IMG/VR virus record: IMGVR_UViG_3300030430_004568
Coordinates: 1,174 to 27,634 of that record
Source of the DNA: a virus
Direction: 5' to 3' (one strand)
DNA: 26,461 nucleotides
Shown here: positions 621 through 26,433 of the stretch, piece after piece
Layout: every line of letters begins with the position of its first letter
Numbering within the stretch: the stretch's first letter is position 1
Notes under the pieces: model-generated
What the model was told of the DNA's origin: nothing
Seen by the model: the letters and a program-made list of their open reading frames with translations, nothing else
Database searches by the model: none
Made by a program: the position numbers and the translations under genes

Positions 621-998
621 TTAGCTTTGTCGACTAAACAAGCTTTTTACATAGCCTGTCCAAGCCCAGAAATTTCTTTCTTGTAAGTAATCTGGGTCTA
701 GGTCGTTTGCGTATGCTTCTACCTCAAATGGGTTTCCGTAATACGCTGCTTTCCAGCTTCCCTTTGTGAAACGACCAATAACATAAAATAAAACATACAA
801 AATCCACTGAAGGACAAACAACATTTCTAGTTGCTGTAAGAAATGAATTGTTTCATGAGTTCTTGTTTTCTCGCTTAACTCTCCACGACAAACAACAAAA
901 GGACCAGCAGAAAATGCCCATACGTCAATAGGAGCAATCTTTGATAGCCAATAAGGTAGTTTGCTATTTTCAATAAAAATTGGTTTTAAGTTCTTCAT
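621..998 (-). CDS. membrane-associated HExxH metallopeptidase-like protein
   Basis: The product is 125 residues. H48-E-T-I-H52 is an HExxH zinc motif, and PFEVEAY (residues 90-96, E92/E94) could give the third zinc ligand, as in gluzincin-type enzymes. Between them lies a hydrophobic segment (about 59-75, MLFVLQWILYVLFYVIG) able to span a membrane. I recall similar short HExxH...FExEAY proteins in bacteria and phages, but no function is established to my knowledge. The ATG at 998 overlaps the TGA of the exonuclease gene (995-997) in an ATGA arrangement, and AAGGAA precedes it, so the two are translationally coupled. Zinc binding and protease activity are inferred from the motif. It could also be a catalytically dead relative. 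Confidence 0.6.
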   Translation of the reverse strand: MKNLKPIFIENSKLPYWLSKIAPIDVWAFSAGPFVVCRGELSEKTRTHETIHFLQQLEMLFVLQWILYVLFYVIGRFTKGSWKAAYYGNPFEVEAYANDLDPDYLQERNFWAWTGYVKSLFSRQS

Positions 999-1969
999 TT
1001 ATTAAGTTCCTTTTTATCCCTTTGGATTCTTGCAAAACCCTCAAACATAGTGCTCCAATTGATCTCATTGATCCCATCCTCTAACATCATTTTGTATGTT
1101 TGAGTTTTATTGAAGGTGTGTTCGAAGTTGTCAATAATCCATTCGATGCTTTGTTTAGTCTGTGTTGAAAGACTAGGACTATACAGTTGCATCAAGTTAT
1201 AATTAGACTGAATAAGTTGTTTGTTCTCTTTTATAGAGATGAACGCTTTAGCGTTGCTTTCTTGATTTTCACAGAACTCTATCAAATCATTAATGTATAC
1301 ATCTTCTTCTTTTTCAAAGAAAGGAAAACGTTTTGCTACCGTTTTCAGTCCAATACCAGGAACTCCATCTAAATTATCAGATTTATCTCCAACTATAGCA
1401 CGAGCTAATGCAAAGTTGTTTGGGTGAATACCATGCTCGTCTATTATGCTATTTTGTGTTAAAAGCTTTTTCTGCACAGGACGATATAAAATAGTCTTTT
1501 GATCAAGCAACTGATAGAAGTCTTTATCACTAGAGACTATAATCTTTTCACTATCACGCAAACTACTATATCGACATATGTAAGAGATAATATCATCAGC
1601 CTCAACTTCATCTGCAATTAATTGCATAACCGGAAAGTTATTCAAATACTCACAGATTCTTTCTTGCTGCCAGATTTTATTTTCTTTTTCTTGTTCTTCT
1701 GTTAAAACTTTAAAATTGCGGTTGAGGCGAATGGGCGCCCTACCTTCTTTATAGTTTTTATTTTGCTGCTTTCGTTTACGACTACCTCCGCGACCATCCC
1801 AACATACAACAATCTGTGTTGGTTTCATCTCGCGGCAAAGCTTTTGAAGAGACTTAAGAAAGCCAGTTGTTCCACCAATGGGCTGACCTTGTTTAGAAAT
1901 CTGCGGAACCACAATATAGCTCCGCAGAAACATGTTTAGCCCATCAATAATGATGACTCTTTCACTCAT
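995..1969 (-). CDS. rnh: 5'-3' exonuclease / flap nuclease (T4 RNase H type)
   Basis: The product is 324 residues from the ATG at 1967-1969, which has AGG seven bases upstream. The longer in-frame start at 2026 lies inside uvsX and adds a poor N-terminus. The acidic metal-binding residues of the FEN/PolA-exonuclease fold are all visible: D9 (IIIDGLNMF), D58 (VCWDGR), E123/D125/D126 (EVEADDI), D148/D150 (SSDKDF) and D195/D198. The helix-three-turn-helix GDKSDNLDGVPGIGLKT follows (194-210). The family removes RNA primers and 5' flaps during lagging-strand synthesis. It starts seven bases after the uvsX stop and overlaps the next gene by four bases. The polymerase at 5409-6596 lacks any nuclease domain, so this gene probably provides that activity separately. 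Confidence 0.93.
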   Translation of the reverse strand: MSERVIIIDGLNMFLRSYIVVPQISKQGQPIGGTTGFLKSLQKLCREMKPTQIVVCWDGRGGSRKRKQQNKNYKEGRAPIRLNRNFKVLTEEQEKENKIWQQERICEYLNNFPVMQLIADEVEADDIISYICRYSSLRDSEKIIVSSDKDFYQLLDQKTILYRPVQKKLLTQNSIIDEHGIHPNNFALARAIVGDKSDNLDGVPGIGLKTVAKRFPFFEKEEDVYINDLIEFCENQESNAKAFISIKENKQLIQSNYNLMQLYSPSLSTQTKQSIEWIIDNFEHTFNKTQTYKMMLEDGINEINWSTMFEGFARIQRDKKELNK

Positions 1970-1976
1970 ATTTAAC

Positions 1977-3089
1977 CTACGCAGTTTCCTCATAGAATTC
2001 AGTGGCGTCACCTGTTCGCTTATCAAACTTCATAACAACCTCTTCATCTATAATTTCTAGTACGCGATCTTTAAATTTAGCGTCTTGTAGTTTATCAATC
2101 CAACGAGCAGACTGAAATTTCTCGCTGGTACCATCAGCAAATTTAAGTTCATACCATGCACCTGATCTTTCTAAGTGATCTGATCCCTGGATTGCCTCGA
2201 ACCAACTTTCTTCATCAGCAACACCGACACTATCGCCCCAAAGTATTTGGAACTTGCACTGACGACCTTGCGAACCAAAGCGAGACTTTTCTAGCTTTAC
2301 TTTCACAGTATTACCAATACGATATCCTTTATCGTCAGTTACAAAAGATGCTTTTGCCTTCGGACGAGTAAGCCAAATACGAAGCGAATAAGCGTAAATC
2401 ATCGCTTTACCACCCGGTGTCATATAAGGAGTGGTAAGTGCTTCAGATGGCGAACGAGTAATGTTTGCCTTTAGCTGATTTAGCACTAGGAAAGTCGACT
2501 GACTATTCGCAATAGGAACAGTTAGTTTTGACATACCCTTTGACAGAATACGAGCTTTTACAGCCATTGTCGACTGTGGGTTAAAGTCTCCTTCCACATC
2601 TGAAATGGATGGAGTAAGAGCCAAACTATCCCAGATAAAAAGAAACTGACTATCTGTAGATGATAACAATTCTTCAATTGTTTCCAAAACAAATTCCACT
2701 GAAGTTGCTTGCACATAAAGAATTTTAGTTGGATCACATCCAGCTTTTTCTAAAAAGTTAAAGTCAAGTGAAGACTCTGAATCAAAGTAAACAACATCAA
2801 TACCCATCTTCTGGGCATTGCCTGCTATCTGTGCAGCCATGTAAGACTTGCCACTTGCTTCTAATCCAGCAATCTCTGTAACCTTGCCCACTGGAATACC
2901 AGCTAATTTGCCACGACAGATAATACTATCAAGCCATCGCGATCCAGTTGGAATCCACTGTTTTACCGTTGTGGGATTATTTGGATCTGCTAGGTCAACA
3001 GAGACTTCTTGTCCTGCTTTTTTATTTATTAGTTTTCTCATCTGGTCCATCGATAAACGACCAGCGGATTTCTTTTTAGCCAATCTCAT
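1977..3089 (-). CDS. uvsX: RecA/UvsX-type recombinase
   Basis: The product is 370 residues. The Walker A loop is G75-LEASG-K81-S82. Walker B is FLFIWD (to D154). The DSESSLD segment (103-109) corresponds to the catalytic-glutamate region of RecA. The L2/DNA-binding region is seen as TTPYMTPGGKAM in mid protein. The length is close to T4 UvsX (about 390) and RecA (about 350). It would form filaments on ssDNA and drive strand exchange and recombination-dependent replication, working with the SSB encoded nearby. The start at 3089 has GAGGAGG just upstream and overlaps the preceding gene by 14 bases. The stop TAG runs into the SD of the exonuclease gene. Whether it is closer to UvsX or bacterial RecA needs an alignment. 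Phage context favours UvsX. Confidence 0.92.
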   Translation of the reverse strand: MRLAKKKSAGRLSMDQMRKLINKKAGQEVSVDLADPNNPTTVKQWIPTGSRWLDSIICRGKLAGIPVGKVTEIAGLEASGKSYMAAQIAGNAQKMGIDVVYFDSESSLDFNFLEKAGCDPTKILYVQATSVEFVLETIEELLSSTDSQFLFIWDSLALTPSISDVEGDFNPQSTMAVKARILSKGMSKLTVPIANSQSTFLVLNQLKANITRSPSEALTTPYMTPGGKAMIYAYSLRIWLTRPKAKASFVTDDKGYRIGNTVKVKLEKSRFGSQGRQCKFQILWGDSVGVADEESWFEAIQGSDHLERSGAWYELKFADGTSEKFQSARWIDKLQDAKFKDRVLEIIDEEVVMKFDKRTGDATEFYEETA

Positions 3090-3411
3090 GTTCCTCCTCT
3101 TCTAAGTTTTCATTTAGTAACCTATCTGGTCTAAATGCATATATTGGTCCCCGGTATCCACTTTTATCTAACTTAAACGAAATATTATCACCATGATCTC
3201 TAATTTCTAGAATATAGTCTTTAGATCGCTGAATTAAATTAGATACATCACTATTGTCAGACCAAAACCAAGCAAACCCCTCTCTAATGTCTTGCTTTGA
3301 AGCATGTACTGAGGATTCGCTATTTGGACCGCCCCCAAGACCTTTATATTTTCTTGCTATATCTTGTAAGGCTTTCTCAAAACCTTCTTCTCCTTTTTTC
3401 CATTTTTTCAC
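3076..3411 (-). CDS. hypothetical protein, 111 residues
   Basis: It starts at GTG (3409-3411) with AGGAGA five bases upstream. That SD overlaps the TAG stop of the zinc-ribbon gene, and the 3' end overlaps uvsX by 14 bases, so it is a coupled member of the recombination cluster. The N-terminus is Lys/Glu-rich (MKKWKKGEEGFEKAL). The middle has FAWFWSDNSDVSN, and the C-terminus is acidic (NENLEEEEHEIG). There is no signal peptide, membrane segment or recognisable catalytic motif. I do not recognise the family. A role in replication or recombination is suggested only by position. Confidence 0.75.
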   Translation of the reverse strand: MKKWKKGEEGFEKALQDIARKYKGLGGGPNSESSVHASKQDIREGFAWFWSDNSDVSNLIQRSKDYILEIRDHGDNISFKLDKSGYRGPIYAFRPDRLLNENLEEEEHEIG

Positions 3412-3420
3412 AATTATCTC

Positions 3421-3708
3421 CTAAAAAACATATGTTGTTTGTGTTTTTTCTTTGTCTGTGTTTTTGTTTATTAAGCCAAACCTGTCTTCCATGTTTTCAT
3501 AATCATCATACAGATCACTAGGCGTTGCTTTTATTTCCATTTTTACGGTTTTAAACTTTGTTTTCTTGCCCATTATATCATATTTAAAATGACCCATGAA
3601 GCCGCCGTAGACTCTTACACGCCCACACTTACATTCTCTTAAATCTTCTGATGTTCTTGAATAAACAGTTGTATTGCACTCTTCGCAATGAATCGCTCTT
3701 ACTAGCAA
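3421..3708 (-). CDS. small zinc-ribbon protein
   Basis: The product is 95 residues. C8-x2-C11 and C26-x-C28 near the N-terminus form a probable zinc ribbon (IHCEEC ... RECKCG), followed by a basic segment rich in Lys (MGKKTKFKTVKMEIK) and an acidic stretch (DDYENMED). The start is TTG at 3706-3708. A purine-rich GGAAGGGG lies four or more bases upstream, and no other start codon precedes the first cysteine pair. It is separated from ssb by a terminator, so it is expressed by read-through or from an unseen promoter. Zinc binding is inferred from the cysteines. No specific function can be assigned. Confidence 0.75.
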   Translation of the reverse strand: MLVRAIHCEECNTTVYSRTSEDLRECKCGRVRVYGGFMGHFKYDIMGKKTKFKTVKMEIKATPSDLYDDYENMEDRFGLINKNTDKEKTQTTYVF

Positions 3709-3766: not shown

Positions 3767-4513
3767 TTAGCTACCTAGTAGCTCAGAGAATGCCTTATCG
3801 ACATCCGAAACCGATCCAGCAGTTGTGGTTGCTGTCTGATTAGATACCGTCTCGTCAACAGTGTTAAGGAAACGGTCAAGAATATCCGCTACTTGCGTAG
3901 TGGAACGACGAGCATCTGAAAAGACCTCATCAAAATCAGGTACAGACTCCATAATAGTACGAGCCTGCGTCTCATCCTCGTGAAGAAGAGATGACTTGCG
4001 CCGTGGAGTAATCTTAGTCTCAGGGTAAGATGCGCCAGCTGGCTTGGAATAGCCAATCACCAAATCAGTGCCCTCTGATGGGTCTGTGATGTCACCATAT
4101 TCTGGGTTTAGAACAAGACCAAGTAGAGTTTCGTAAGCACGCTTACCAAAGCCCCAAACTTTTACGCCTTCTTCCTCTTGCCCTCGGACAAGAACTGGAG
4201 CAAAGAAACGTTGCTTCGCACCTAGCTTACGTGCAACACGCTTGGACTCTTCAGAACCTTCACGCCATAGAGCACGTACATAATCATCAAGTGGGCAGTC
4301 CTCACCAAAATTACGCTTTGGCGAAAGGAATCCGGGCTCACCTGCTACGTCATAGTGAAACCAATAATCTCGGAAGGGATCGCCATCTGACGGAGCTACC
4401 AAGCGAATAGTTTGCTCGCCTTCCTGTGGTTTCCAAAAGTTGTTTTTCTTGTTATTTCCGTTTCCTTGTAGCGCCTCCATACGAGCACGCATTTTATCCA
4501 TATTAATTCCCAT
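3767..4513 (-). CDS. 32: single-stranded DNA-binding protein, gp32-like
   Basis: The product is 248 residues, shorter than T4 gp32 (301). The N-terminus MDKMRARMEALQGNGNNKK is basic. The OB-fold core begins at NNFWKPQEGEQTIRLV, the usual opening of phage gp32-like proteins, with aromatic-rich FRDYWFHYDVAGEPGF. The C-terminal tail is Ser/Thr-rich and ends DKAFSELLGS, a typical partner-binding tip. The Cys/His zinc site of T4 gp32 is not conserved (only one Cys, in EDCPLDDYV). AAGGAGA lies nine bases before the ATG at 4513. It would coat ssDNA and organise the polymerase and recombinase encoded around it. A strong terminator follows, and a hairpin lies just upstream (4538-4560). Its G+C-richer codon choice resembles gp23 and suggests high expression. 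Confidence 0.88.
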   Translation of the reverse strand: MGINMDKMRARMEALQGNGNNKKNNFWKPQEGEQTIRLVAPSDGDPFRDYWFHYDVAGEPGFLSPKRNFGEDCPLDDYVRALWREGSEESKRVARKLGAKQRFFAPVLVRGQEEEGVKVWGFGKRAYETLLGLVLNPEYGDITDPSEGTDLVIGYSKPAGASYPETKITPRRKSSLLHEDETQARTIMESVPDFDEVFSDARRSTTQVADILDRFLNTVDETVSNQTATTTAGSVSDVDKAFSELLGS

Positions 4514-4537: not shown

Positions 4538-4560
4538 CAGTGTGTTGATCTTTCACACTG
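4538..4560 (-). promoter_or_regulatory. leader hairpin upstream of ssb
   Basis: On the minus strand CAGTGTG and CACACTG form a perfect seven-base-pair stem with the nine-base loop AAAGATCAA. It spans the stop codon of the tubulin-like gene and ends 24 bases before the ssb start. It is followed by an unstructured A/T-rich stretch holding the SD. No T-run follows, so it is not a terminator. T4 gp32 represses its own mRNA from a folded element at a similar distance, so an autoregulatory operator is a reasonable inference. Confidence 0.5.
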
Positions 4561-5401
4561 CTAGTTGTTGTATCAAAGTGCTGCTTTTTTCGCAGTAAGC
4601 TATAAGCTCATTATAATCAGTTGAATGAACTGAATAAGTAGTTTTCATTTTTTCATGTTCTATGTTTGACTTTAGGTTTCCACGAATAACCTCCATGAGA
4701 TTAGGATCTTCTTCTAGTTGTTTTTTTGGAACTCCATAATAATAACTTTTTTCTCTTGGAATGTCAAGCTCAAAAAACATTTTTTCTTGGTTATTTTCTG
4801 AATCTAACAAACCAAAGGTGGATATACGAGCAGTATCAACACGCTTAGTCTGTGTAGTCATTATAGGTTGTGTGTTTTGAAAAACATTTAACATATGATA
4901 TGTTGTCGCAATCAAGCTATTCATCGAGTCCCATAATCTTATAATTGGAACAGGACCCATTATATCAGATATTTTAGAATTGTCAACTAAAAAAACACGG
5001 TCAAGCAGATCTGATCGAGCATACTCCTGAAAAACGTTGAAAAGCAAATTATTTTGTAGAGCCTTTAAACCAACTAAGTCGTCTTTTTGTGGCAGAATAT
5101 ACATTATTTTTATTTTAGTTTTAGTATGGATTTTCTGTAGAATCTTTAAGGAAGCACCAGAGACAGCACCACAACTTGTAATAAATAAAGTTTCAGGCAT
5201 CACCCCCTCTAAGAAATTATTTATACCTTTCGGCATATTGCTTTTTTCATAAAGTTCAGGGCTGTCCTGATGCTTAAGACCAAATGTTGTTTTGGTCTTT
5301 TTTAGACCTACATCTATTTTTTTTATTTTGTATTGTGGGTATTGTGATAGCTGATCTGCTATGTTGCAACCCGCTTTACCTAAACCTATGACGGTCTGCA
5401 T
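4553..5401 (-). CDS. divergent FtsZ/tubulin-like protein
   Basis: The product is 282 residues. The N-terminus VIGLGKAGCNIADQL (4-18) has the layout of the FtsZ T1 nucleotide loop, with G6, G8, G11 and N13. Residues 78-84 GAVSGAS sit where the tubulin signature GGGTGTG lies, after a strand and before a helix. V139-DNSKIS-D146 matches the FtsZ strand-plus-loop IPNDKLL with the ligand Asn at 141. LWDSMNSLIATTYHMLNVF (156-174) resembles the core helix H7. The signature is degenerate and the catalytic T7 loop is unclear (perhaps VDTARIS), so GTP hydrolysis is doubtful. It is shorter than bacterial FtsZ. It starts seven bases after the polymerase stop, with the SD TGAGG overlapping that stop, and precedes ssb. 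The family call rests on motif reading. Rossmann-type NAD-binding proteins are the main alternative. Confidence 0.62.
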   Translation of the reverse strand: MQTVIGLGKAGCNIADQLSQYPQYKIKKIDVGLKKTKTTFGLKHQDSPELYEKSNMPKGINNFLEGVMPETLFITSCGAVSGASLKILQKIHTKTKIKIMYILPQKDDLVGLKALQNNLLFNVFQEYARSDLLDRVFLVDNSKISDIMGPVPIIRLWDSMNSLIATTYHMLNVFQNTQPIMTTQTKRVDTARISTFGLLDSENNQEKMFFELDIPREKSYYYGVPKKQLEEDPNLMEVIRGNLKSNIEHEKMKTTYSVHSTDYNELIAYCEKSSTLIQQLAV

Positions 5402-5408
5402 CTATGCC

Positions 5409-6596
5409 TCATTTAATATTAAGTGGTTTCATTTCTGACCAGTTTTTGCCGCCTTCATGATTTATTTTAAACTTGCCAAATCTTGTATTACTAAATAGTT
5501 TAGAGATTTGGTTTATGTCATATTGGTCTTCCTCTGCCAGATCAACAACTAAACTATCGTGATTACAGAACTTAACAAAAGATTTTTTGTCCTCAAGAAA
5601 CTCCCAGACTTTATACATTTGCTCAAAAACTAAATCTGCTGCTGTTGATTGAATAATATAACTAATCGCATGATCTTCGTCAGCATCAATCTCTCTGCCA
5701 AACTGTGTATAAACCTTACCCAAAACTTTATCAAAATACATATCTTTTAAGATTTTACGGTCGTAAATCTTATCAACTTTATCGTCAGTGCTGTTTGGAT
5801 TATAAAGCCAAGAAAAAATCCTTTTCTTTGCATTTTCTCTACTTTTAGTTCTAGTGAAGACATTTTTAAGATTCCAATCATGTAAATCCTCTTGGGGCTG
5901 GTCATGACCCAACAAAGCCAAAGCAACTCGCAACTCACAAGCGTTAAAATCCAATTCAAACAACCAATCGTTAGTGGGGGTAAGGATCTGGCGATATTTC
6001 TTTGGAAGCGTCATGACTGGAAATGAGTTTTGTTTTGTTGCCAACCGACCAGTAACTGTTTTAAACATGTCATAGTCAATATAAGGCTTACAGTTGCTTA
6101 CAGTCTTGAACATATTTCGGTCTTGAACTGTAAGTCGTTCTATCTTTGTTGGATCGATGTTAACCTTACGGTTTTTAATATCTGCGATAACTTTGTTAAT
6201 CTTAAGCAACTGATCGTAGTTTGTAGGTTTTGAATAGTTGGCAAAGATATCTTCACAGATTTTATTTTTTATCTCTGCAAAGTTTTGTAAATAATGACTT
6301 GGGATTAGATCATATAAGCAATAATCATCAAGGCTTAGACCTACTTCGTTTGCTGCTTTGAACGCTGCTTTGATTCTTGCTTGGACTGCGGACCACTCCC
6401 CTCTAGAATCTTCTGGGCAAAGCTCGTCCAGGGATTTACCCCCGGTGTAAAGATTAGCATACTCGACCTCCTTGTCGCGTAGATAAGTAGCATATGACCA
6501 AGTTTTGGTACAGTTATTTGTTATTTGTTCGCTAAATGTTCCTTTTCTGTAGATTAGGGAACATTTATTTTTTTCATCAAATGTTTGGAAAAGCAT
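5409..6596 (-). CDS. minimal family A DNA polymerase without exonuclease domain
   Basis: The product is 395 residues. Family A motifs appear in order: TGRL (182-185); motif A D216-FNAC-E221-L-R223; motif B R253, K257, F261 and Y265 with exact Pol I spacing; Q316 in SYIIQSTAAD; and motif C H346-D347-S348. Both catalytic Asp residues (216, 347) are present. Departures from Pol I are the last Glu of HDE, which is Ser, and Tyr-Gly after motif B, which is Tyr-Asn. The segment between motifs A and B is very short, so the fingers are reduced. No 3'-5' exonuclease domain precedes the thumb-like N-terminus, so no proofreading is expected from this chain. The start codon overlaps the preceding stop (TAATG), indicating coupling. 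It may be the replicative polymerase or an accessory one. Only the full genome can tell. Confidence 0.85.
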   Translation of the reverse strand: MLFQTFDEKNKCSLIYRKGTFSEQITNNCTKTWSYATYLRDKEVEYANLYTGGKSLDELCPEDSRGEWSAVQARIKAAFKAANEVGLSLDDYCLYDLIPSHYLQNFAEIKNKICEDIFANYSKPTNYDQLLKINKVIADIKNRKVNIDPTKIERLTVQDRNMFKTVSNCKPYIDYDMFKTVTGRLATKQNSFPVMTLPKKYRQILTPTNDWLFELDFNACELRVALALLGHDQPQEDLHDWNLKNVFTRTKSRENAKKRIFSWLYNPNSTDDKVDKIYDRKILKDMYFDKVLGKVYTQFGREIDADEDHAISYIIQSTAADLVFEQMYKVWEFLEDKKSFVKFCNHDSLVVDLAEEDQYDINQISKLFSNTRFGKFKINHEGGKNWSEMKPLNIK

Positions 6597-7996
6597 TAAA
6601 GGTCCGGTGTAAATTCAGTGACAAATTTGCCCACAGTGGGCTGGTCTTTGGTTTGCAGATTAACATAGCTTTTTGCCATTGTCAATTGTTTTTTAGGAGA
6701 ATTCCAAAATAATTTATTAGTTTTTGGATCATATATTTTTGTCGGAGTGTAAAAGTCTTCAATTTTATCTAAAATTTCTATGGTGCTTTTCTTATCTAGG
6801 ATCATTGTTTTTAACAACTTTTTAAAGTTGTGATATTGTGCGGACCTTGCCTTGTTTTCATGTCGATTTGCCAAGATGTTTTCAAATTTCATTAAAAAGT
6901 AATTGTCATTAAATTTTTTCTCATTAAGGTTTTTAATTTTAAATATTTTTTCTTTTTCTCTAAAAAATTCAATACCAGAAACATTCTTTATATAGTCCTG
7001 TAGACTGCTGTACGCTTTACCATGATCTATAATATAATCAACTTTATTTTTATATTCATCATATCCACCTTTCACTTGAGAGACAAATAATCCAAAAGAA
7101 GTATCTATAACTCTATCGTAATATTCATTAAAAAATACATCTAGACTCGGTATAAACTTTTCTCTTAAATAACCATCAGTTTGTATTGTTCTTAATTTTT
7201 TCTTTATCGGATCGTAGCCTCTTTTTATTGTTTTACCAGACATCATTGGCTTGGACCTTAAATCTGCCAACAACATTCCTGGTACATTTCTATTTATCCT
7301 AAACCCAAAATTTGCAGCTGTTTGCACGAATTTGTAAAATTCTGGGTCAATGTAAAATTTATTTTTTAGAAAATCATTATTATTATTTTCAATTACAAAT
7401 CTAAAAGCCAATCCTGTGCCGCTGTGACTATTATCAATACTCATAAACGTATCGTAAAATAAAAACTCTTCATTGAAGAAGTGAAGAAAATCAACAAACT
7501 CGCACATGTACGATTCAAAATCAATAACTTTTCTTTTTTGAGGGGGATTCGTAACCAATCTAAGATTGAATGCTTCAATTATTTTTGTTGATTTTATTAA
7601 ATGTTGTTGAAATGGATCGACAAAACATTCTTTAACTTTAAAATTATTGTAAAGTCTACCCAAAGAAGTTTTGCCACCAGTTGTTGCTTTTCTCATAAAA
7701 AAAGTAAAATCATCAATAGCTTTAATCATAAAATCAAAACCATAGTATCTTGTTGAAGTACCCTCTAGCATTGGGTAAGACATTTTACTTGTTTTTGGAT
7801 ATACTAATTTATTTGAAATATCTATTTTTCCATAAAGAGGCACATCATACCAAAGATCAATATAATTTGGATTAAATTGATCAAAGATTTCTGTTGTTTG
7901 TCTTTTGTAATATTCTTCCAAAAGATAAGAGGGAAGAGCACTATTTGCAAAATTTGTATTTCCTTTGTTTAAAAATAATGGATTATAGTTTGGCAT
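6596..7996 (-). CDS. hypothetical protein between hub and polymerase genes, possibly structural
   Basis: The product is 466 residues, rich in Phe, Tyr, Lys and Asn, with no signal peptide, membrane segment or nucleotide-binding loop. The N-terminal part reads NPNYIDLWYDVPLYGKID, which recalls poorly characterised virion-associated proteins of marine phages, but I cannot name a family. The rest is predicted mostly helical (LIKSTKIIEAFNL, FVDFLHFFNEEFLFYDTF). It starts 13 bases after the 1061-residue hub gene without a clear Shine-Dalgarno. It ends in a TAATG overlap with the polymerase. By position it is either the last baseplate or tail gene or the first replication gene, and I lean to a virion protein. 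Its codons are A/T-rich like those of the hub gene. Confidence 0.75.
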   Translation of the reverse strand: MPNYNPLFLNKGNTNFANSALPSYLLEEYYKRQTTEIFDQFNPNYIDLWYDVPLYGKIDISNKLVYPKTSKMSYPMLEGTSTRYYGFDFMIKAIDDFTFFMRKATTGGKTSLGRLYNNFKVKECFVDPFQQHLIKSTKIIEAFNLRLVTNPPQKRKVIDFESYMCEFVDFLHFFNEEFLFYDTFMSIDNSHSGTGLAFRFVIENNNNDFLKNKFYIDPEFYKFVQTAANFGFRINRNVPGMLLADLRSKPMMSGKTIKRGYDPIKKKLRTIQTDGYLREKFIPSLDVFFNEYYDRVIDTSFGLFVSQVKGGYDEYKNKVDYIIDHGKAYSSLQDYIKNVSGIEFFREKEKIFKIKNLNEKKFNDNYFLMKFENILANRHENKARSAQYHNFKKLLKTMILDKKSTIEILDKIEDFYTPTKIYDPKTNKLFWNSPKKQLTMAKSYVNLQTKDQPTVGKFVTEFTPDL

Positions 7997-12456: not shown

Positions 12457-14508
12457 CTAAACAGGATTGTGTACAATGCTTATTTGTCTAAACTTTTCAT
12501 CGATGATTCTTCTAACGTCGCCAGAATTTAGTTGATGTTTGCTGCTTGCAATAACTTGACCATCTGCGTGAAGGTTGATTGTAACAGGTTGACTGGTGTT
12601 TGCAGAGGCTCCCGCGCTTTGGACTGCACTACCAGCTGGTAGGTAAGTTAAATTACCTGTTCTATTACCAACCGACATTGGCATTGGATTGCCTCTGGTG
12701 AACTTGTTTTCCATTCCTAATTCATCGGTCATGGCAAAACCGCCTTCACTCATAAAGTTATTACCTGCTGCAAATCCTAAAGCATCGCTCAGGAAACCCC
12801 CCGCCATCCCACCAGCCAAGGCGCCACCAGGATTACCGCCACTCAAGACAAAACCGCCGATTGCTCCAACCGCTCGTATTGCAATACCGCCAAATTTAGC
12901 CAAGGCAGATGAAGCGCGTGGTGAAGCTTCTGCAACTTTTAAAAGTGAACGTGCAGCCGAGTCAAGTGATTTTGCTACTCCATCAAGAGTGTTCATTAGC
13001 TTATCTTGCGTTTTTGCCTGCATTTCTGCAGTGGTTTCACCTTCCTCTTGTGCGGCTGTTAATTTATTCATCGCTTCTTCGGCGCTGACGCTTCCGGCGG
13101 TGATATTCCTTAACTGCTCGGAAGACACATTACCAAATCGTCGCATTTGTTCAGCTGACATTCCCACAGAGCTGGTCAATGCACGCATTTGCGAAAAGTT
13201 TAATTGGTCTATCTGCAAACCTTGAGCCTCAAGCACTTCTCTTAATTGAATAAAAGCTTCTACTGGACCTTCAAGATTAAATGTATCCATTAATTCTAGA
13301 CCATCAATCGTCGTTCCGAATACAGCATTTAATTTAGAAGCAGCAGTCAATGCACCTTCAAATGTAGAAAAAGTTTCTAAAGAGCTTACCATGCTGTCAA
13401 TGGCGATACCAGTTTGCTGTTGAATTTTACTTAGTTTTAGAAACTCTCTTTGAATATCTGGTAATCCAAATTTGGCTAGATTGTTAGATTGTGCTTGAAA
13501 ATCTGTAAACGCTTGCCTTGCATCTAAACCCATATTGTCAGCTAAAACAGCTAGCGACTTTGCAAACCCTTGAGATTCCATGGCACTTTGACCAAATGCT
13601 TGAGAAAGGGTATCAGTTAGTTGTGCTGTTTGCGAAATAGGAATATTTAATCTTCTTTGTAAAAGAAAAGAAGTTTTAAGTAGGGAGTTGGCAGCGGGAT
13701 CATTAGCTGCTTTTAGCTCTCTAAATTGTCTTGATGCGCTAAATAACTCAGTGGATAGCTGTCTAACTTCGTCAGTAGTTGCTCTGAAGGAGTCAGCCAG
13801 CGCCATAGAATTTTGTCTGAAGCTTTCTATTTCCCCCGGATCGAGTAATTGAAGATCTCTACCAGATGTTCTAAATGCATCCAATCTACCGGCTGCTTTT
13901 TTCAGAGCCTCATCAAAATCTACTGCACTTTTAACCGGTTCAATAGCAATGTCTCGCATACCGGCTAAAGACTTCTTTACTTCTTTAGCGGCGTCTGCCG
14001 CAAGGGAAAGGACGATTCCCAAACCACCAAGGTTCTTGCCCTTAGCCATAATGTCTTTACCGATACCCTTTACTACCTTAAGGGAACCTTTAAGCTTGCT
14101 GCCGCCACCAGCGGCTGCATTTGTGGCTTTAGCAAATTGTTCGGCTCTATTACTTATTCCGCCAAAAGATTTTATTAATTGGTCGGATTCATTGTCAATA
14201 AATTTTAAAAGATCTGATTGTTTTTCGTACTCTTGTGTTGCTTCTTTGAGCTTTTCAATTAACTCATCGGTAGCTTCACCAGCTTTTTGAGCTTCAGTTA
14301 GAGCGTCTTTAGCTGCTTGCACTTTTAATCTTTCAGAATCTAATGTCAAACGGGTTAATTCTTCAGTATTTCCCAGCTCTTTAGCTATTTGTTTTTCAAT
14401 TTCTAATTCTTTCTGCCGCTCTTCATTAGTTTTTGCTTTTATTCTCAGCCGCTCTTCAAGAAGGCGAATTTGTTCTTCTAGTTGTTCTCGGGTTTGGTTC
14501 TCAGACAT
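12457..14508 (-). CDS. 29: tail tape measure protein
   Basis: The product is 683 residues. Residues 1-115 form a charged coiled coil (EEQIRLLEERLRIKAK, many Glu/Lys heptads). A long helical, Gln/Ala/Ser-rich centre contains tape-measure-like stretches (SQTAQLTDTLSQAFG, LAVLADNMGL). A Gly/Ala hydrophobic region at about 536-585 (RAVGAIGGFVLSGG, GGMAGGFLSDALGFAAG) is of the kind thought to reach the host membrane. The C-terminus reads PVTINLHADGQVI, usual in tape measures. It would run inside the tail tube and set its length. By the rough 0.15 nm per residue rule the tail tube would be about 100 nm. It follows an unknown gene by nine bases and precedes the tube initiator. T4 gp29 is 590 residues. 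Confidence 0.85.
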   Translation of the reverse strand: MSENQTREQLEEQIRLLEERLRIKAKTNEERQKELEIEKQIAKELGNTEELTRLTLDSERLKVQAAKDALTEAQKAGEATDELIEKLKEATQEYEKQSDLLKFIDNESDQLIKSFGGISNRAEQFAKATNAAAGGGSKLKGSLKVVKGIGKDIMAKGKNLGGLGIVLSLAADAAKEVKKSLAGMRDIAIEPVKSAVDFDEALKKAAGRLDAFRTSGRDLQLLDPGEIESFRQNSMALADSFRATTDEVRQLSTELFSASRQFRELKAANDPAANSLLKTSFLLQRRLNIPISQTAQLTDTLSQAFGQSAMESQGFAKSLAVLADNMGLDARQAFTDFQAQSNNLAKFGLPDIQREFLKLSKIQQQTGIAIDSMVSSLETFSTFEGALTAASKLNAVFGTTIDGLELMDTFNLEGPVEAFIQLREVLEAQGLQIDQLNFSQMRALTSSVGMSAEQMRRFGNVSSEQLRNITAGSVSAEEAMNKLTAAQEEGETTAEMQAKTQDKLMNTLDGVAKSLDSAARSLLKVAEASPRASSALAKFGGIAIRAVGAIGGFVLSGGNPGGALAGGMAGGFLSDALGFAAGNNFMSEGGFAMTDELGMENKFTRGNPMPMSVGNRTGNLTYLPAGSAVQSAGASANTSQPVTINLHADGQVIASSKHQLNSGDVRRIIDEKFRQISIVHNPV

Positions 14509-14516
14509 TTATATGT

Positions 14517-14864
14517 TTATCCTATGGGCCACTTAACACCAGTGGTTTTCTCAAAGTTGTGAATTGATTTCTCTAACTCTAGCTTTGTGTCTGTGAGTTC
14601 TGGTGAGCCTAGACCATGCTCCGCATAATCTTTTGCATATTGTTTTTCTTTTTCTAAAGTATCAGCAAAAGCTTTCACATCCTCTTTTGAGCCTTTGATT
14701 ACAAATGTAGGTTCTCCCTCGTCTTTTTCTCTGATTAAGGCTCTATAGGCATCTAAAGATAAAACATTTCTCAATAGCGCTCTTAATTGAGCAGCAAACC
14801 GAGACATAGATGATTCAGTTAGCAAATGTTTTTTTGAAACATTAATAACAATGCGGTCGCTCAT
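14517..14864 (-). CDS. hypothetical protein before the tape measure gene
   Basis: The product is 115 residues, soluble and mostly helical, with GGAG nine bases before the ATG at 14864. The N-terminus MSDRIVINVSKKHLLTESS resembles other phage proteins with a short strand followed by a helix. The middle has FVIKGSKEDVKAFADTL, and the C-terminus IHNFEKTTGVKWPIG is distinctive. There is no known motif. It lies between the gp51-like gene and the tape measure gene, where many phages place tail assembly chaperones, so a role in tail assembly is inferred from position only. Confidence 0.75.
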   Translation of the reverse strand: MSDRIVINVSKKHLLTESSMSRFAAQLRALLRNVLSLDAYRALIREKDEGEPTFVIKGSKEDVKAFADTLEKEKQYAKDYAEHGLGSPELTDTKLELEKSIHNFEKTTGVKWPIG

Positions 14865-14902
14865 TACACAATACTCCTTTGTATAATTAGTGTTTTTATT
14901 AA

Positions 14903-15079
14903 TTATCTTTTTGTGTTTTTTTGATTAGCCTTTTCGATTGCTTCGTTTTCATTTTCTTTTTGTTTGATTGTTCTCTCAACAAACCAATTACGCAATCCAA
15001 TAGGTAGGTTATATAATTCAGTCAAAGACCATTGGCTAATGTATTTCATAAAGAAGAACTGTTCATAAACGTCCTTCAT
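14903..15079 (-). CDS. small baseplate or tail assembly protein, gp51-like
   Basis: The product is 58 residues from the ATG at 15077-15079 (MKDVYEQFFFMKYISQWSLT). It starts four bases after the gp26-like stop. A longer frame opening at 15178 would lie inside gp26 and add an unlikely hydrophobic stretch. The segment FFFMKYISQWSLTELYNLP followed by GLRNWFVERTIKQK and a Lys/Glu/Asn tail resembles the short proteins encoded next to gp26 in T4-type phages (gp51, baseplate hub assembly) and small tail chaperones. No Shine-Dalgarno is visible, so reinitiation after gp26 is likely. The name is a positional and motif guess. Confidence 0.6.
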   Translation of the reverse strand: MKDVYEQFFFMKYISQWSLTELYNLPIGLRNWFVERTIKQKENENEAIEKANQKNTKR

Positions 15080-15083
15080 ATAA

Positions 15084-15905
15084 TTAGAGGTTAGGCCAAA
15101 AAAACTCCGCAGTAAGCGGAACCTCCAATCTTGAAATAGTACCACAAGCAGGACATTCAGCTTCACAAGACATATCAACGTCTGGCATTACCGAAGCATA
15201 AAGCTTTTTTAAGATAGAAGAGTCTCTAATAGGAAGAACTTGGAGCGCCCGATTGATATAGAATGAATCTGTTTGACCATTAATAGAAACAATAATTAAA
15301 CTAAGTAATCCAGTTGTTCCTTTGTTTTTTTCTTTTGCAACAATTTCTTCATCACGCGAAGTTAACAATCTAAACTCAACAACAAATTCGCTCTTTGGAA
15401 GAGTGATTAAAAAGGTATTGTTTTCTGTTTTCTGAACCTCTTCACCAATAGTTATTTCTCTTGCCTCAAAACTATTTAAATCCACGGTAGTTTCGAATTG
15501 ATTTGAACAGTTTTGACAAGTTAGAGATACATTGTAGTCTTCTCCGTAGCCATAGATTCTAGAGGCAATAATTAGCGCATTCTTGTCACCAATTAGTAAA
15601 TCATCAACTTTAATTGAATCATCAACGATAATGCTCTCTAAAACACGATTGATTGCAATACCTTTTCTAATTAAGCTTTGAGAAGTAAGAATATCCTCTT
15701 CTTTTGCTGTCATGTGTTTTATTTCAATTGAATCAACACCATGTAGGGGATGGTTAGGTGGATAAAACTCGCCCTTGCTTGGCAAATCAACGATTTCAGT
15801 TGGAACAACAAAATTAAATAAACCTTGATGCTGCTGCGCAGGGACGGGTGGGGCTGCAGCCACTTGGGGTGCATTAGCCTTAACACGATTTTTATTTCTT
15901 GACAT
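15084..15905 (-). CDS. 26: baseplate hub subunit gp26-like, zinc-binding
   Basis: The product is 273 residues. A low-complexity Ala/Pro/Gln N-terminus is followed by LPSKGEFYPPNHPLHG, a near-universal opening of this phage family, then MTAKEEDILTS and LLIGDKNALIIASRIYGYG. Two cysteine pairs, C130-QN-C133 and C251-PA-C254 (with C247 nearby), probably hold one zinc ion. The end EFFWPN is typical. In T4, gp26 belongs to the hub-assembly set. Here it follows the tail tube genes and is coupled to the gp51-like gene. GAGG lies five bases before the ATG at 15905. T4 gp26 is 208 residues, and this one is longer at its N-terminus. Confidence 0.8.
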   Translation of the reverse strand: MSRNKNRVKANAPQVAAAPPVPAQQHQGLFNFVVPTEIVDLPSKGEFYPPNHPLHGVDSIEIKHMTAKEEDILTSQSLIRKGIAINRVLESIIVDDSIKVDDLLIGDKNALIIASRIYGYGEDYNVSLTCQNCSNQFETTVDLNSFEAREITIGEEVQKTENNTFLITLPKSEFVVEFRLLTSRDEEIVAKEKNKGTTGLLSLIIVSINGQTDSFYINRALQVLPIRDSSILKKLYASVMPDVDMSCEAECPACGTISRLEVPLTAEFFWPNL

Positions 15906-15921
15906 TTTAACCTCTTATTTG

Positions 15922-17074: not shown

Positions 17075-20000
17075 TTAATCTTCAAAAGCCGCTCCTGAGT
17101 CAGTTAAAATAAAGTCCACAGCGATAAACTCTATTGCTCTTGCTGGTTTAATAAAGATCTTGGCATAAAGAATATTTCTATCAACTAAATCTGGTGTTGT
17201 CGTTGTTTCGTCCAATACCAATTTAAAGTCAGTTATTCCAAGCCCAGCTTGTACTGATCTTAAGAAAGGCTCAACTCTACCGCGGAATCGATTCCACGTT
17301 GTTTGAACATTTTGATCAAACAAAATAGTTGCCGCAAATCTAGAAATTTCCCTCTTCAAGAAGATCATCAATCTTCTAACATTAATTCTATCAAGCGCCG
17401 TTGGCGTAATTTGTAATGTCTTTTGTCCAAAGATTACAATACCTTCAGCCGGGAACTGTGCGATAGGATTAATTCTATTTTCATATAGTTTGTCTCTATC
17501 TCTAGAGTTTAATCTATCTTTAACGGATATAACTGGAAGCCCTGCTCTACCAGCAGATAATCCACCTCTTGTAAATCCTGCTGGTGCAAACCAAAGTTCA
17601 GCAGTCTTTTGACTGTAAGAGAGGGCACCAATAGCAGCAACTGAAGGTGGTACAGTTACAATTTGTCCATTATTAAGATCACGAACATTAACATATGGAT
17701 AGTAAGTAGCAGCGTAGCTAGAGTTGATAACATTTGTTTTCATTTCTGAAACAACTGCGTCTACAGTGCCTTTTCTGCTACCCGCACTTCCTAACTTTTG
17801 CTCTGGTGGTATAAATCCACCTTTTACATCGATAATTGCAAGCGCATCTCCACGAGCCTCGCACATGTCGACAAGCTTGGTATTTAAACTAGCATTAACA
17901 ATTCCAGGCATAGAAGCAAGATTGTATTCTACTACTTCTGGATCTCTAATAGAATCGATAGCAACATTAAGCGAGTTAAATACGGCGCTGTTTTTATTTG
18001 TTGCATTTGCACCAATTCTATAGTTTACATCTCTTAATGGCTCGGACTCTGTAATATCAAGACCATCAAAACCACCAGCAAAAACTGTTGTGAATTTATC
18101 AATTCCTGCATCTAGAACTTGAGTGTAACTACCAGAGCCACGTAAATAAGTTAATGAGCCACGAGGTCCAGTCTCTTGACCAACCACGGCTCTAGATCCT
18201 TTTTTATAGGCATAGAATTTAGCTCCATCTGTTCCTGTCTCGAAACAGATATCGTCTAATGTAAAGTGGAACGAAACTTCGGTTGTGGTACCGGCATTGA
18301 AATCTGAAAAGTCTCTTGGTTTAACTTTTAAATGATCTCTAATTGATTTATCTAATCTTACAGAATTAAAAGTAGTATCAACTCCAAAGAAAGAATTAAA
18401 TTGATCAACCGGGCTACCCTCTGAAGCAGACACTCTCAAACGAAGTTGTGGGAACTCAAAATTAATTTGACCATTGGTAGCTTGTGCGCCACTAATAAAT
18501 GTTTTGACTGCACCTCCACCATAGTTACTGTAGTTTCCTGAAACTAGAGTATTTCTTGTAGCTGACCCAGTTTGGTCATTGAAAGATTTAAATTGAATTG
18601 GTCCGCGAACGCCGAATGGAAGCCTACGTGGATCTGTTTGTCCAAGTAAAACTTCATCTGGCATACTTACGTAAACATATTTTGAGTTATTTGGGAAGTC
18701 TCCAAACTCTCTATATCTTTTGTCTTGGTTATTCCACTCTTGATACTTTGTTCCAATCTTTAATCCAATGAAATCTTGCGAACTTGGATTCAAATTGCAA
18801 TTGTCAAAACGCTCAACTATCTGCATTCTATTATCAGTATCGTTAATTTTTCTAATGATAACACTAAAAGATCCATATGGCTGATCTGAAGTGTCGTCAG
18901 GAGCGGCGCGTAAATCAGAAATTGAAACCTTTAGATTTCTAGATACATAATCGCCACTATTTCTGGCGACTAGCTTAAATAGATTCTTTTGGTTCTCTAC
19001 AACAAACGAACCGGTTGTGTTACTTAAATCTTGTGAGAAAAAGAAACCAGTCTCGCCGTTTTGATAATCTTTTCTAAAATCGCTGCCCTCACCAGAGGTT
19101 CCTGACATGAGAGGCAAGATAACACCTACTTGATCGCCTGATGTGCCAACGGTTTGTCTAACTGCGCCTTCAAATGACTCGCCAAGCCAGTACCTTGTAA
19201 AAGAGTTACTGTTTGGGTCTGTTACGCTGCTATTAGTTAATGTTGGATTTGTACTAAAAACTTTTCTAATAAACTTATCACTAGTGTCTGTAAAGTTAAA
19301 AGTAGAATCTGCGAGAATACCAGTGGCGCCACTTACTTGAACTTTAAAGTGTTGCGCAGAATCAATATTATCAAAGTATATTCCTGCGCCTGCCCCTGGT
19401 TCGCCATTATCGCTTCTAGTGCCGGATAATGCAATTGAAGCGCTTTGGTCAATATACCAAACTGCGGCTAGTGTTCCGGTAGTTGCAGCGTAAGATGCGC
19501 TAACGCGACCAAATGTACCATTTGCTACAGTTGTTGAATTGCCTTGAGAATCAGGCACGGTGATTATAATCGCACTTGGTCCGTCTACGCCACCATCAAA
19601 TTGATTACTTGTTGCTTGCTGTCCTCCTACGGCAGTGTAAGAAGTAAGATTATTAGTTACAGCTTTATTACCCACAGCACCAGCGGTGTTCTGTGTTATT
19701 GTTATGGTAAAGGGGTCGCTCCCACCGACAGCGCTGACGGTGACTTTACCAGCGAGGGTGCTTGCTTCAATTGCAGCTTTTAATTGATCTATACCGTGCG
19801 AGGCGCCACCTCTATTGAAAAGTGCGACGGTAGCGGTACCGTCTGTGGATGCGTTAGTGGCTTTAAATGTTTTTGCTGTTCCGTCCGCAGCTGTAATTTC
19901 TATTGTGTCATCGACATTCGGAGCGTTAGCAGCAGTAATTAATAATGACGCTGCTACATTAGCACCACCTTCTTCCTTGATAAGCGGACCAGGATACAGC

Positions 20001-20719
20001 GTTGGAAGCTCGTTGTCAGTCATTGGCGAACTTCCGCTTTTAACTTCAACTGTGATTACACCTGCAACGTTAGAAGCTGAAAAGATAGTATTTAAGTTGA
20101 TAGCGGTTTTAATGGCATCTGCTACTAGTGTGACAGTACCGCCCGAAGCATCAAAGTTAGTAGCATCTGTAGTCGTACCAGAATTGATAGTATGTACAGT
20201 GCCCAAACCATCAGAAAGAACAATAGTTTGTCCGGATCGTATAGTAGCCGAGTGTACCGTAATCGTTCCTCTTTGATAAGTTCTACTAGGTGCATTGCTG
20301 ATGAAAAGACCAAAAGCACCGCCATTTTCATTGTTAGCAGCCGGCGTCAGATCTGTTGTTTGCCAGCCTGCAAGACCACCGGGAGAATCAGCTTCTTCAG
20401 AAGCTTGACCACCTAATCGTACAAAAGTTACTGGTGCGTTGTTTCTAAACCATGCTTGTGCAGCATAAGCACCATAAGTAGGAGAAGTATAATTTCCGTC
20501 TCTAGCAACATCACCACCGGCGCCGCCAGGGATAGGCTCGCCAAAGGTATTAACAAAATCAAAAAATGAATCTACTTTTGTTGGTTGAAGAATTGGACCC
20601 TTTTCTGCGCGACCAATAATCACTGGTCCAACTGCTTCAGGTGTCGCGGTTCTTGCTGTGTTATCAATCTCACTTACAAATATTCCAGGTGAGATAAATT
20701 TATACTTTTCTACGGACAT
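17075..20719 (-). CDS. 18: tail sheath protein gp18, enlarged
   Basis: The product is 1214 residues, nearly twice T4 gp18 (659). The N-terminus YKFISPGIFVSEIDNTARTA and the C-terminal core are typical of contractile sheaths: the GIVIFGQKTLQ region, INVRRLMIFLKREISRFA, then QNVQTTWNRFRGRVEPFLR and ARAIEFIAVDFILTDSG. The extra length is mostly between about residues 150 and 480, with two related Ala/Thr/Gly-rich beta modules (about 160-232 and 266-380) that should lie on the outside of the tail. GGAG precedes the ATG at 20719. The sheath contracts to drive the tube into the host. It follows gp15 and precedes the tube genes, as in T4. Confidence 0.92.
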   Translation of the reverse strand: MSVEKYKFISPGIFVSEIDNTARTATPEAVGPVIIGRAEKGPILQPTKVDSFFDFVNTFGEPIPGGAGGDVARDGNYTSPTYGAYAAQAWFRNNAPVTFVRLGGQASEEADSPGGLAGWQTTDLTPAANNENGGAFGLFISNAPSRTYQRGTITVHSATIRSGQTIVLSDGLGTVHTINSGTTTDATNFDASGGTVTLVADAIKTAINLNTIFSASNVAGVITVEVKSGSSPMTDNELPTLYPGPLIKEEGGANVAASLLITAANAPNVDDTIEITAADGTAKTFKATNASTDGTATVALFNRGGASHGIDQLKAAIEASTLAGKVTVSAVGGSDPFTITITQNTAGAVGNKAVTNNLTSYTAVGGQQATSNQFDGGVDGPSAIIITVPDSQGNSTTVANGTFGRVSASYAATTGTLAAVWYIDQSASIALSGTRSDNGEPGAGAGIYFDNIDSAQHFKVQVSGATGILADSTFNFTDTSDKFIRKVFSTNPTLTNSSVTDPNSNSFTRYWLGESFEGAVRQTVGTSGDQVGVILPLMSGTSGEGSDFRKDYQNGETGFFFSQDLSNTTGSFVVENQKNLFKLVARNSGDYVSRNLKVSISDLRAAPDDTSDQPYGSFSVIIRKINDTDNRMQIVERFDNCNLNPSSQDFIGLKIGTKYQEWNNQDKRYREFGDFPNNSKYVYVSMPDEVLLGQTDPRRLPFGVRGPIQFKSFNDQTGSATRNTLVSGNYSNYGGGAVKTFISGAQATNGQINFEFPQLRLRVSASEGSPVDQFNSFFGVDTTFNSVRLDKSIRDHLKVKPRDFSDFNAGTTTEVSFHFTLDDICFETGTDGAKFYAYKKGSRAVVGQETGPRGSLTYLRGSGSYTQVLDAGIDKFTTVFAGGFDGLDITESEPLRDVNYRIGANATNKNSAVFNSLNVAIDSIRDPEVVEYNLASMPGIVNASLNTKLVDMCEARGDALAIIDVKGGFIPPEQKLGSAGSRKGTVDAVVSEMKTNVINSSYAATYYPYVNVRDLNNGQIVTVPPSVAAIGALSYSQKTAELWFAPAGFTRGGLSAGRAGLPVISVKDRLNSRDRDKLYENRINPIAQFPAEGIVIFGQKTLQITPTALDRINVRRLMIFLKREISRFAATILFDQNVQTTWNRFRGRVEPFLRSVQAGLGITDFKLVLDETTTTPDLVDRNILYAKIFIKPARAIEFIAVDFILTDSGAAFED
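19580..20242 (-). repeat. tandem related domains inserted in the tail sheath
   Basis: Two modules, at sheath residues about 160-232 and 266-380, share one layout. A strand reads GQTIVLSDGLGTVHTI or DTIEITAADGTAKTF. A Thr-rich stretch follows, then a helix with AIKTAINLN or QLKAAIEAS, then strands GVITVEVKSGS or GKVTVSAVGGS. The second continues to TQNTAGAVGNKAVT and a GG-rich end. They are divergent protein-level repeats, not DNA repeats. Modules like this recur in phage tail and surface proteins. A surface position is inferred. Confidence 0.6.
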
Positions 20720-24645: not shown

Positions 24646-26433
24646 TTACGCTTTTGCGCCGCTCTCACCTAAGAGTCCGCGACAAATGACTAGACCGTAC
24701 ATATCTGGTCGAACCATCTTCTTCGCGTAACGAGTCATAACACCCTTACGTGGTACGAAGTCTTCCACACCGAAGATGGTAGGAGTGACTTGTAGTGGCA
24801 CGTATGGAGCGTATACATAACCGCTCTCTAGGAAGGAACCACCCTTACGTCCAACGAGGATAAGGTTACGTGGGAAGTAAGGATCAACATATACATCATA
24901 ACGCTTGCTTAGGGTACCAACTTGCTTTGTACCAGCTGCACCGGTAGCATCGTCATGGGTTACGTTAGCGCGGAAACCGGCTGTGAACTCAAGGATGTTA
25001 GCAACCTCTGGGGAAGTAACAAGGAAGTTCGCGCCGCCACGAAGAGTCTTACGGTGAATCTGAGCAGAGATATCATTAATAGTCTCGCCAAGAGTCTCGT
25101 ACCACTCTGAAACAGTACCAGTGAAGTCTGGGGCAGCGGAGCTAGCACCAATTTCTGCACCGGTCTCTTTATCAACAAATAGACCTGGGCTGCGTGACCA
25201 GTAGTATTTACCGGCAGTTGCACCTTTTACGAGGTCTTCTACGATCTCACGGTCGATCTCAAGAGCAATCTGCTCAGAGAGAATCGAAGTAAGCTCTACC
25301 TCTGCATCAAGGTTGTGGTAAGCGTTTAGGTCTTGACCTAATTCTGGTGTCCACTTTGCCTTGAGCTTCTTGGTGACTGCAGTTACCGAAATGGAATCGA
25401 CCTTAAGGTTGATCTCTGGAATCTCTTCGCTATTCTCAAGACCCCAAGCCGTTGCACCAACTACCGAACCAAGACTAGCCGCTCGCGATTCAAAGTTATC
25501 TTTAATCGGGAAACTTATCGACGCGGCTCTCATCGAACTACTGAGAGCAGCCGCCGAGGTCGTATTATCACCAACCATAACAAGCAGAACGTTACCATCA
25601 GCACGATTAGTTCTGAACTGTGATAGGCGACGAAGCTGGGTGCCAGCGAGTGCGGCGGAACCGGTTAATGTAATTGCAACCAGATTATCAGCGTTGAAGT
25701 CGCTGCCTTCTCCAACAAGCGTCGATAACGCAACCTGACCAACAGCGAAGACAGTTGTTCCAGAAACGACTGCTGGGTCATATCTAAGAATAGAGTCAAG
25801 CTCTGCCACTGTAAGCTGTTGGCTTGCGCCTGTTAGAACAGTAGCGCCAGGACCTGCATAGGTACCACTAGCAATAATAGGAAATGTGGCGTGCGCCTGG
25901 GCTCCCAAAGTACCAGTTGGCGATGAATAACCATTAGTTAGGTTATAAAGCGCTCCGGCTGAAGTTCCAAACTCGCCAGACAAATCAACACCACCGGTTA
26001 GCTGGCGACCAACTTTTCCTGCGCCGTATAGCGACTCGCCGTCTGCAAAGTCTAGACGAGCGCTATCTGGACCACCGCCGAGGGTTCCTCCATCGGCAAA
26101 GGTAAAGTCTAGGAAGAAGATAAGACCAGATGGAAGCGACATTGGCTGAACGCTAACAAGGTCATTTGCAATAAGACCACCGAATACACGACGGACAATT
26201 GGGAATGCAACAGCAGCGAAACCTTCTACGTCGCCACCGCTCATGGTTGAAGCTGCCTCTTTTAGAAGCTGCTTTGCTTGGTTCTCAAGAAGACGAGCCA
26301 TATTGTTTTTGCTAACGTCGTTTCCGAGACCCTCTAGAAGTCCGGTCTGCTCCCACTTGTTTAGGAGTGCCGCACCTTCCTTACGCATGTCGCGTGATAC
26401 GACACCTTCTGTAAGTTTTTGTAAAATAGACAT
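24646..26433 (-). CDS. 23: major capsid protein gp23
   Basis: The product is 595 residues, against 521 for T4 gp23. The T4-type core opens with VAFPIVRRVFGGLIANDLVS followed by VQPMSLPSG. A helical N-terminal delta domain (about 1-59) precedes it. L57-K-E59|A60 fits the (L/I)xE prohead protease rule and lies near T4's processing site at residue 65. The C-terminal half has DLNAYHNLDAEVELTSILS, the usual gp23 helix, and ends RPDMYGLVICRGLLG. AAAGGAGA nine bases before the ATG is strong. It forms the HK97-fold hexamers of the head. Codons are clearly more G+C-rich than the tail genes, as expected for the most abundant protein. The upstream prohead genes (gp20-gp22) would be beyond the right edge. 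Confidence 0.95.
   Translation of the reverse strand: MSILQKLTEGVVSRDMRKEGAALLNKWEQTGLLEGLGNDVSKNNMARLLENQAKQLLKEAASTMSGGDVEGFAAVAFPIVRRVFGGLIANDLVSVQPMSLPSGLIFFLDFTFADGGTLGGGPDSARLDFADGESLYGAGKVGRQLTGGVDLSGEFGTSAGALYNLTNGYSSPTGTLGAQAHATFPIIASGTYAGPGATVLTGASQQLTVAELDSILRYDPAVVSGTTVFAVGQVALSTLVGEGSDFNADNLVAITLTGSAALAGTQLRRLSQFRTNRADGNVLLVMVGDNTTSAAALSSSMRAASISFPIKDNFESRAASLGSVVGATAWGLENSEEIPEINLKVDSISVTAVTKKLKAKWTPELGQDLNAYHNLDAEVELTSILSEQIALEIDREIVEDLVKGATAGKYYWSRSPGLFVDKETGAEIGASSAAPDFTGTVSEWYETLGETINDISAQIHRKTLRGGANFLVTSPEVANILEFTAGFRANVTHDDATGAAGTKQVGTLSKRYDVYVDPYFPRNLILVGRKGGSFLESGYVYAPYVPLQVTPTIFGVEDFVPRKGVMTRYAKKMVRPDMYGLVICRGLLGESGAKA

Follow-up and report, generated by a model that had tools for sequence, protein, structure and literature searches.

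The 26,461-nt stretch of marine phage DNA analysed here (referred to as the window; positions 1,174 to 27,634 of the IMG/VR record IMGVR_UViG_3300030430_004568) encodes a small family A DNA polymerase, mini-PolA, which on balance we take to be a conserved accessory enzyme, that is, an exonuclease-less, Pol I-like polymerase for gap filling and repair, and not the replicase of the phage. Its gene is the first of a cluster that continues with the genes for SSB, RecA, a 5' nuclease and the gp41 helicase. The relevant features of the window, all on the minus strand, are the following.

998..2026 (-): stand-alone 5'-3' nuclease of the Pol I N-domain/FEN type (PF02739, PF01367)
1977..3089 (-): UvsX/RecA recombinase (PF00154)
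3076..3411 (-): conserved protein of 111 aa, same cluster
3421..3708 (-): 95-aa protein of the same cluster, with a DUF7695 match
3767..4513 (-): gp32-type single-stranded DNA-binding protein (SSB; PF08804)
4553..5401 (-): tubulin/FtsZ-fold protein of 282 aa, directly downstream of mini-PolA
5409..6596 (-): mini-PolA, exonuclease-less family A DNA polymerase, ATG start, 395 aa; motif A, D216..E221; motif B, R253/K257/F261/Y265; motif C, H346-D347-S348
6596..7996 (-): 466-aa protein (h466), encoded immediately before mini-PolA (upstream) in most loci, with no confident family
17075..20719 (-): T4 gp18-type tail sheath (context gene)
24646..26433 (-): T4 gp23-type major capsid protein (context gene)

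The match of mini-PolA to the Pfam family DNA_pol_A (PF00476) is split over two stretches and scores 43.7 bits (E 2e-11), which exceeds the curated cut-off of 34.3 bits. By comparison with E. coli Pol I, D216 corresponds to D705, R253/K257/F261/Y265 to R754/K758/F762/Y766, and H346-D347-S348 to H881-D882-E883. The interval from motif A to motif B measures 37 residues (E. coli Pol I, 49; T7 gp5, 43), and 82 residues separate the Tyr of motif B from motif C, versus 116 and 124, respectively. The AlphaFold model, for which 23 homologues were used as input, has a pLDDT of 92 and a pTM of 0.89 and could be superposed on the large fragment of Bst Pol I over approximately 350-370 residues with a VIA Z of about 25. 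The profile score, the residues of motifs A, B and C and the Klenow-type fold all place mini-PolA in family A. The ORF, the Pfam match and the model thus agree with what the initial annotation had read from the sequence, namely a 395-residue family A polymerase with both catalytic aspartates, the R/K/F/Y of motif B, a very short A-B interval and HDS instead of HDE in motif C.

With TIGR00593, which represents canonical Pol I, mini-PolA scored only 20 bits (cut-off 600). Its 395 aa do not include the fused 5' nuclease and 3'-5' exonuclease domains of canonical Pol I, and the canonical HDE is replaced, the residue after the motif C Asp being Ser in 80 of 83 distinct sequences. Membership of family A as such does not depend on HDE, because the polymerase of the Thermus phage Tt72, which is active, has a natural Ser at the E883 position (PMC9324360). 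Mini-PolA has no working 3'-5' proofreading domain. As judged from the model, the first ~110 residues probably represent what is left of a shrunken exonuclease domain, because residue 1 aligns near Bst residue 316, inside the exonuclease-like domain (by alignment range only). The earlier statement that a proofreading domain is missing therefore holds for a working one, but not in the sense of a clean absence.

An identity as DpoZ, the Z-genome polymerase, had been suggested by a PurA-like gene in the related record G001 and was rejected, mini-PolA scoring 17 bits with NF038380 against a cut-off of 500. The short PurA-like protein itself (336 aa; L061 14504-15511 = G001 134504-135511) falls below the PurA and PurZ cut-offs, scores better with PurA than with PurZ and keeps YGDCGKGK (GD-GKGK); the same record also carries GuaB-like and GroEL-like genes.

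The first search recovered 46 close relatives of mini-PolA, and a profile-type query raised the number to at least 575. One hundred matches, representing 82 distinct homologues, all share the invariant residues, so that a chance likeness of motifs is excluded. The equivalents of R668, D705, E710, R754, K758, Y766, Q849, H881 and D882 are kept in 83/83 distinct sequences and that of F762 in 82/83. The median dN/dS of 28 pairs among eight close mini-PolA genes was 0.063; the gene is under purifying selection. From this value and the prevalence of Ser, we concluded that HDS is a family trait fixed under selection and not a defect. The concern that HDS might cost the enzyme its activity is answered by this conservation together with Tt72, whose S616A variant keeps 76% activity (PMC9324360), and inactivity due to HDS was rejected. 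That mini-PolA is a catalytically dead or scaffold protein which only binds DNA is in a wider sense highly unlikely: HDS and the strong active-site divergence in the YDA branch described below would fit such a protein, but the catalytic residues are kept in every one of the 83 marine sequences, the Tt72 enzyme works with Ser, and HDS also occurs in T7 RNA polymerase and a Herelleviridae PolA. Judging from its residues, mini-PolA is predicted to be catalytically active. Another natural loss of the E883 carboxylate is seen in the full PolA of Flavobacterium phage immuto_2-6A (L159 37898-40231), which has HDQ for HDE.

The T4-type structural context noted at the outset was borne out by the families found, i.e. 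gp23-like capsid, sheath, tube, baseplate hub and wedge, and by synteny with Microcystis phage Mel-JY01, and the clustering with a separate 5' nuclease, SSB and RecA by profile matches to the 5' nuclease, gp32-type SSB and UvsX/RecA families. In nearly every locus long enough, the gene order is h466, mini-PolA, tubulin-fold protein, SSB, RecA, 5' nuclease and gp41 helicase, with minor departures in a few loci. The 466-aa protein is probably the last gene of the tail/baseplate side. The listed TTG start of the 5' nuclease overlaps RecA, and the true start is probably an internal ATG (MSERVIIIDGL). An adenosylcobalamin-type ribonucleotide reductase adjoins gp41 (L056 1998-3857), scores 933 bits to its Mel-JY01 counterpart and is far more highly conserved than its neighbours. 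The scan of genome contigs gave a single match, in the WOR-3 MAG chromosome CP070664.1 (L183 8704-14060), in which a mini-PolA/tubulin-fold/SSB/RecA cluster is embedded, possibly as a prophage remnant or an assembly chimera; it was not taken as evidence for a host.

T4 relatives replicating with gp43 would be expected to carry a family B polymerase (PolB; PF00136), and the absence of one elsewhere had been anticipated. This was confirmed, as PF00136 was detected in 0/22 related IMG/VR records with sizes of up to 205 kb. Nor was a second family A polymerase found in the related records tested, at a Pfam threshold below which mini-PolA itself falls in two of them, G004 and G012. On the other hand, a family C DnaE (PF07733) is present in 16 of the 18 related records tested, the remaining two, which lack it, being fragments (47 and 36 kb). 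Two full-length family C polymerases are located as follows.

G001 13167-16439 (L055): DnaE
G004 130180-133656 (L075): DnaE

The G001 DnaE comprises PHP, alpha NTPase, finger and HHH domains, scores 560 bits with TIGR00594, which is above the cut-off, and has its Asp motifs in place (PDIDYD/FDILGL); its PHP region is cut by a ten-N scaffold gap, and the G004 copy is intact. The closest DnaE in the phage collection shows only about 30% identity to the DnaE of the gp43-less T4-type phages. In three of the related records (G015, G016 and G017; 186-204 kb), the ends overlap by about 99, 119 and 51 bases, respectively, as in circular or terminally redundant assemblies, and these records therefore probably represent complete genomes; each has one mini-PolA, one DnaE and no PolB, and owing to the end overlaps this lack of PolB carries weight. 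The viruses of G001 and G002 are almost identical, so that the two records should count as one. Since the record from which the window comes is a 27.6-kb fragment, ending before the position that DnaE has in the relatives, DnaE is demonstrated in the relatives and not in that record. No bacterial beta clamp was found in the clamp search; the T4 clamp search gave zero matches, even in Mel-JY01, and is hence uninformative on the presence of a clamp.

The locus of mini-PolA was also compared in isolates and a huge phage. By sheath and RecA, Mel-JY01 is the closest isolate; it is collinear with the window and has PolB and clamp-loader genes. At the position of mini-PolA, it encodes an unannotated 408-aa protein, which scores 118 bits to the orthologue of the huge phage LR756508 (452 aa) and 24 bits to the G004 mini-PolA. 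LR756508 has PolB and a partial Pol III alpha match; its PolB gene (L092 37803-40712) is apparently interrupted by a Hint/intein-like domain, and a further PolB match lies downstream in a second frame (W01:266583). In immuto_2-6A, gp001 is the mini-PolA orthologue and precedes SSB, RecA, 5' nuclease and DnaB; this phage has a separate 777-aa PolA with exonuclease, and neither PolB nor, by tblastn, a DnaE homologue. Since an orthologue at the same locus occurs with DnaE, with PolB or with a full PolA, the replicase varies among families C, B and A while mini-PolA stays in place.

These results overturn one of the two roles first proposed for mini-PolA, a replacement replicase. The lack of PolB in the clade would suit a main replicase acting in place of gp43, but a full DnaE in 16 of 18 records and orthologues that coexist elsewhere with PolB or a full PolA leave this idea almost no probability. 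The other role, that of an error-prone repair enzyme or an accessory one, is upheld in its accessory part by the same-locus orthologues standing beside PolB in Mel-JY01 and LR756508 and beside a full PolA in immuto_2-6A.

The polA tree that the initial annotation had called for was built, and in it all mini-PolAs fall together, apart from the full PolAs, with 100/100 support; the three isolate-type sequences (Mel-JY01, LR756508 and immuto_2-6A) form a sister branch to the marine mini-PolAs, in a topology for which long branches call for caution. The three share with them the locus between the tail genes and SSB-RecA-5' nuclease-gp41, but they are longer (408-452 aa), have YDA as motif C and accompany a PolB or full PolA replicase. 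In addition, their E710 position is occupied by His, and the Arg of R754 is missing. Because the active site has diverged in these three PolB- or PolA-carrying phages, polymerase activity may not be common to all mini-PolA orthologues.

In bacteria, primer RNA is removed and gaps are filled by Pol I during Okazaki-fragment maturation and repair (PMC12926913). A Pol I-like gap-filling role is suggested for mini-PolA because its family A core adjoins a stand-alone 5' nuclease, as if the activities of Pol I were split over genes. In the mechanism that we propose, the phage's own DnaE would carry out bulk synthesis, the 5' nuclease would remove RNA primers or flaps, and mini-PolA, acting on SSB-coated template, would fill the short gaps arising from Okazaki-fragment maturation and from RecA/UvsX recombination and repair, so that separate genes would jointly do the work of the domains of bacterial Pol I. 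Gap filling, low fidelity and a partnership with the nuclease, SSB and RecA are all putative, and a shared neighbourhood by itself is no proof of a shared pathway.

Two other roles have to be weighed against gap filling. Mini-PolA might be an error-prone translesion or damage-tolerance polymerase, made with RecA and SSB and bypassing UV lesions in sunlit seawater. The lack of a working exonuclease, the compact fingers and the RecA/SSB neighbourhood are consistent with this role, as is the fact that some bacteria employ Pol I enzymes whose proofreading is inactive in lesion bypass (PMC12926913). We nevertheless consider it rather unlikely, as the mini-PolAs, like accurate PolAs, keep the R/K/F/Y of the O-helix and the steric-gate Glu, and no insertion specific to lesion bypass was seen in mini-PolA. 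Somewhat less probable still is an enzyme of recombination-dependent replication that would extend the D-loops formed by RecA/UvsX ahead of the loading of DnaE and the helicase. This would agree with the preservation of the order mini-PolA, SSB, RecA, 5' nuclease and gp41 in distant phages with different replicases, but T4-type phages without mini-PolA start recombination forks with the main replicase.

The 282-aa protein encoded next to mini-PolA matched no sequence family in profile searches. Its model (pLDDT 94) matches FtsZ, TubZ and CetZ along the whole chain (Foldseek E 5e-13; VIA Z 24.6), and in 98 loci (62 at <88% identity) its gene is the one immediately downstream of mini-PolA. The first glycine-rich loop is kept (GLGKAGCN). 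GTP hydrolysis is doubtful, because the GGGTGTG-like loop is degenerate (CGAVSGAS). The protein was not detected by sequence in Mel-JY01 or immuto_2-6A. Tubulin-like proteins are present in jumbo phages (PMC7824862), and no link between a tubulin-like protein and a polymerase gene was found in the open-access papers searched. It is conceivable, if improbable, that mini-PolA and this protein form one unit, in which the polymerase would be tethered to a cytomotive or scaffold protein of the phage or organised by it, as the hallmark of a large unnamed marine T4-type clade with DnaE replacing gp43.

No description of a T4-type phage with DnaE and mini-PolA was found in the open-access papers searched, and mini-PolA, widespread as it is, was not found described there as an accessory enzyme. 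In this phage lineage, the main replicase has been exchanged among families A, B and C, whereas a small second polymerase has been retained at its position, and the question why phages need a Pol I-like helper thereby becomes testable. In virome surveys with PolA as the single replication marker, an accessory enzyme may be misread as the replicase. Small exonuclease-less enzymes of this kind are also candidate laboratory polymerases.

Compared with known systems, mini-PolA shares with the Bst/Klenow/KlenTaq large fragment of Pol I the fold over nearly the whole chain and the main active-site residues except E883, but identity is about 14-17%, the N-terminal domain is shrunken, the fingers and the B-C interval are shorter, and the 5' nuclease is a separate gene. 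The Tt72 polymerase is likewise a family A enzyme with Ser for E883, but has 703 aa and strong 3'-5' proofreading (PMC9324360). The TV-Pols also have a minimal superfamily A core of about 400-600 aa without exonuclease, but their gene partners are D5 helicases or transposon genes, never nucleases (PMC2579912). An identity of mini-PolA as a TV-Pol was rejected on context, as its neighbours, in a T4-type phage, are SSB, RecA, 5' nuclease and gp41 and not a D5 helicase or a transposase/resolvase. APEX/PolA2 of Actinobacteria resembles mini-PolA as an accessory PolA with an inactivated exonuclease domain alongside a family C replicase, but is cellular, and its vestigial exonuclease domain bears a beta-clamp motif (PMC12926913). 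Finally, the T4-type virion, gp41 helicase, UvsX and gp32 are shared with the gp43-based replisome of T4, and the combination of two polymerases with the group 2.2 jumbo phages (PMC7824862), whereas the phages described here have a full PHP-containing DnaE in place of gp43, and mini-PolA in addition.
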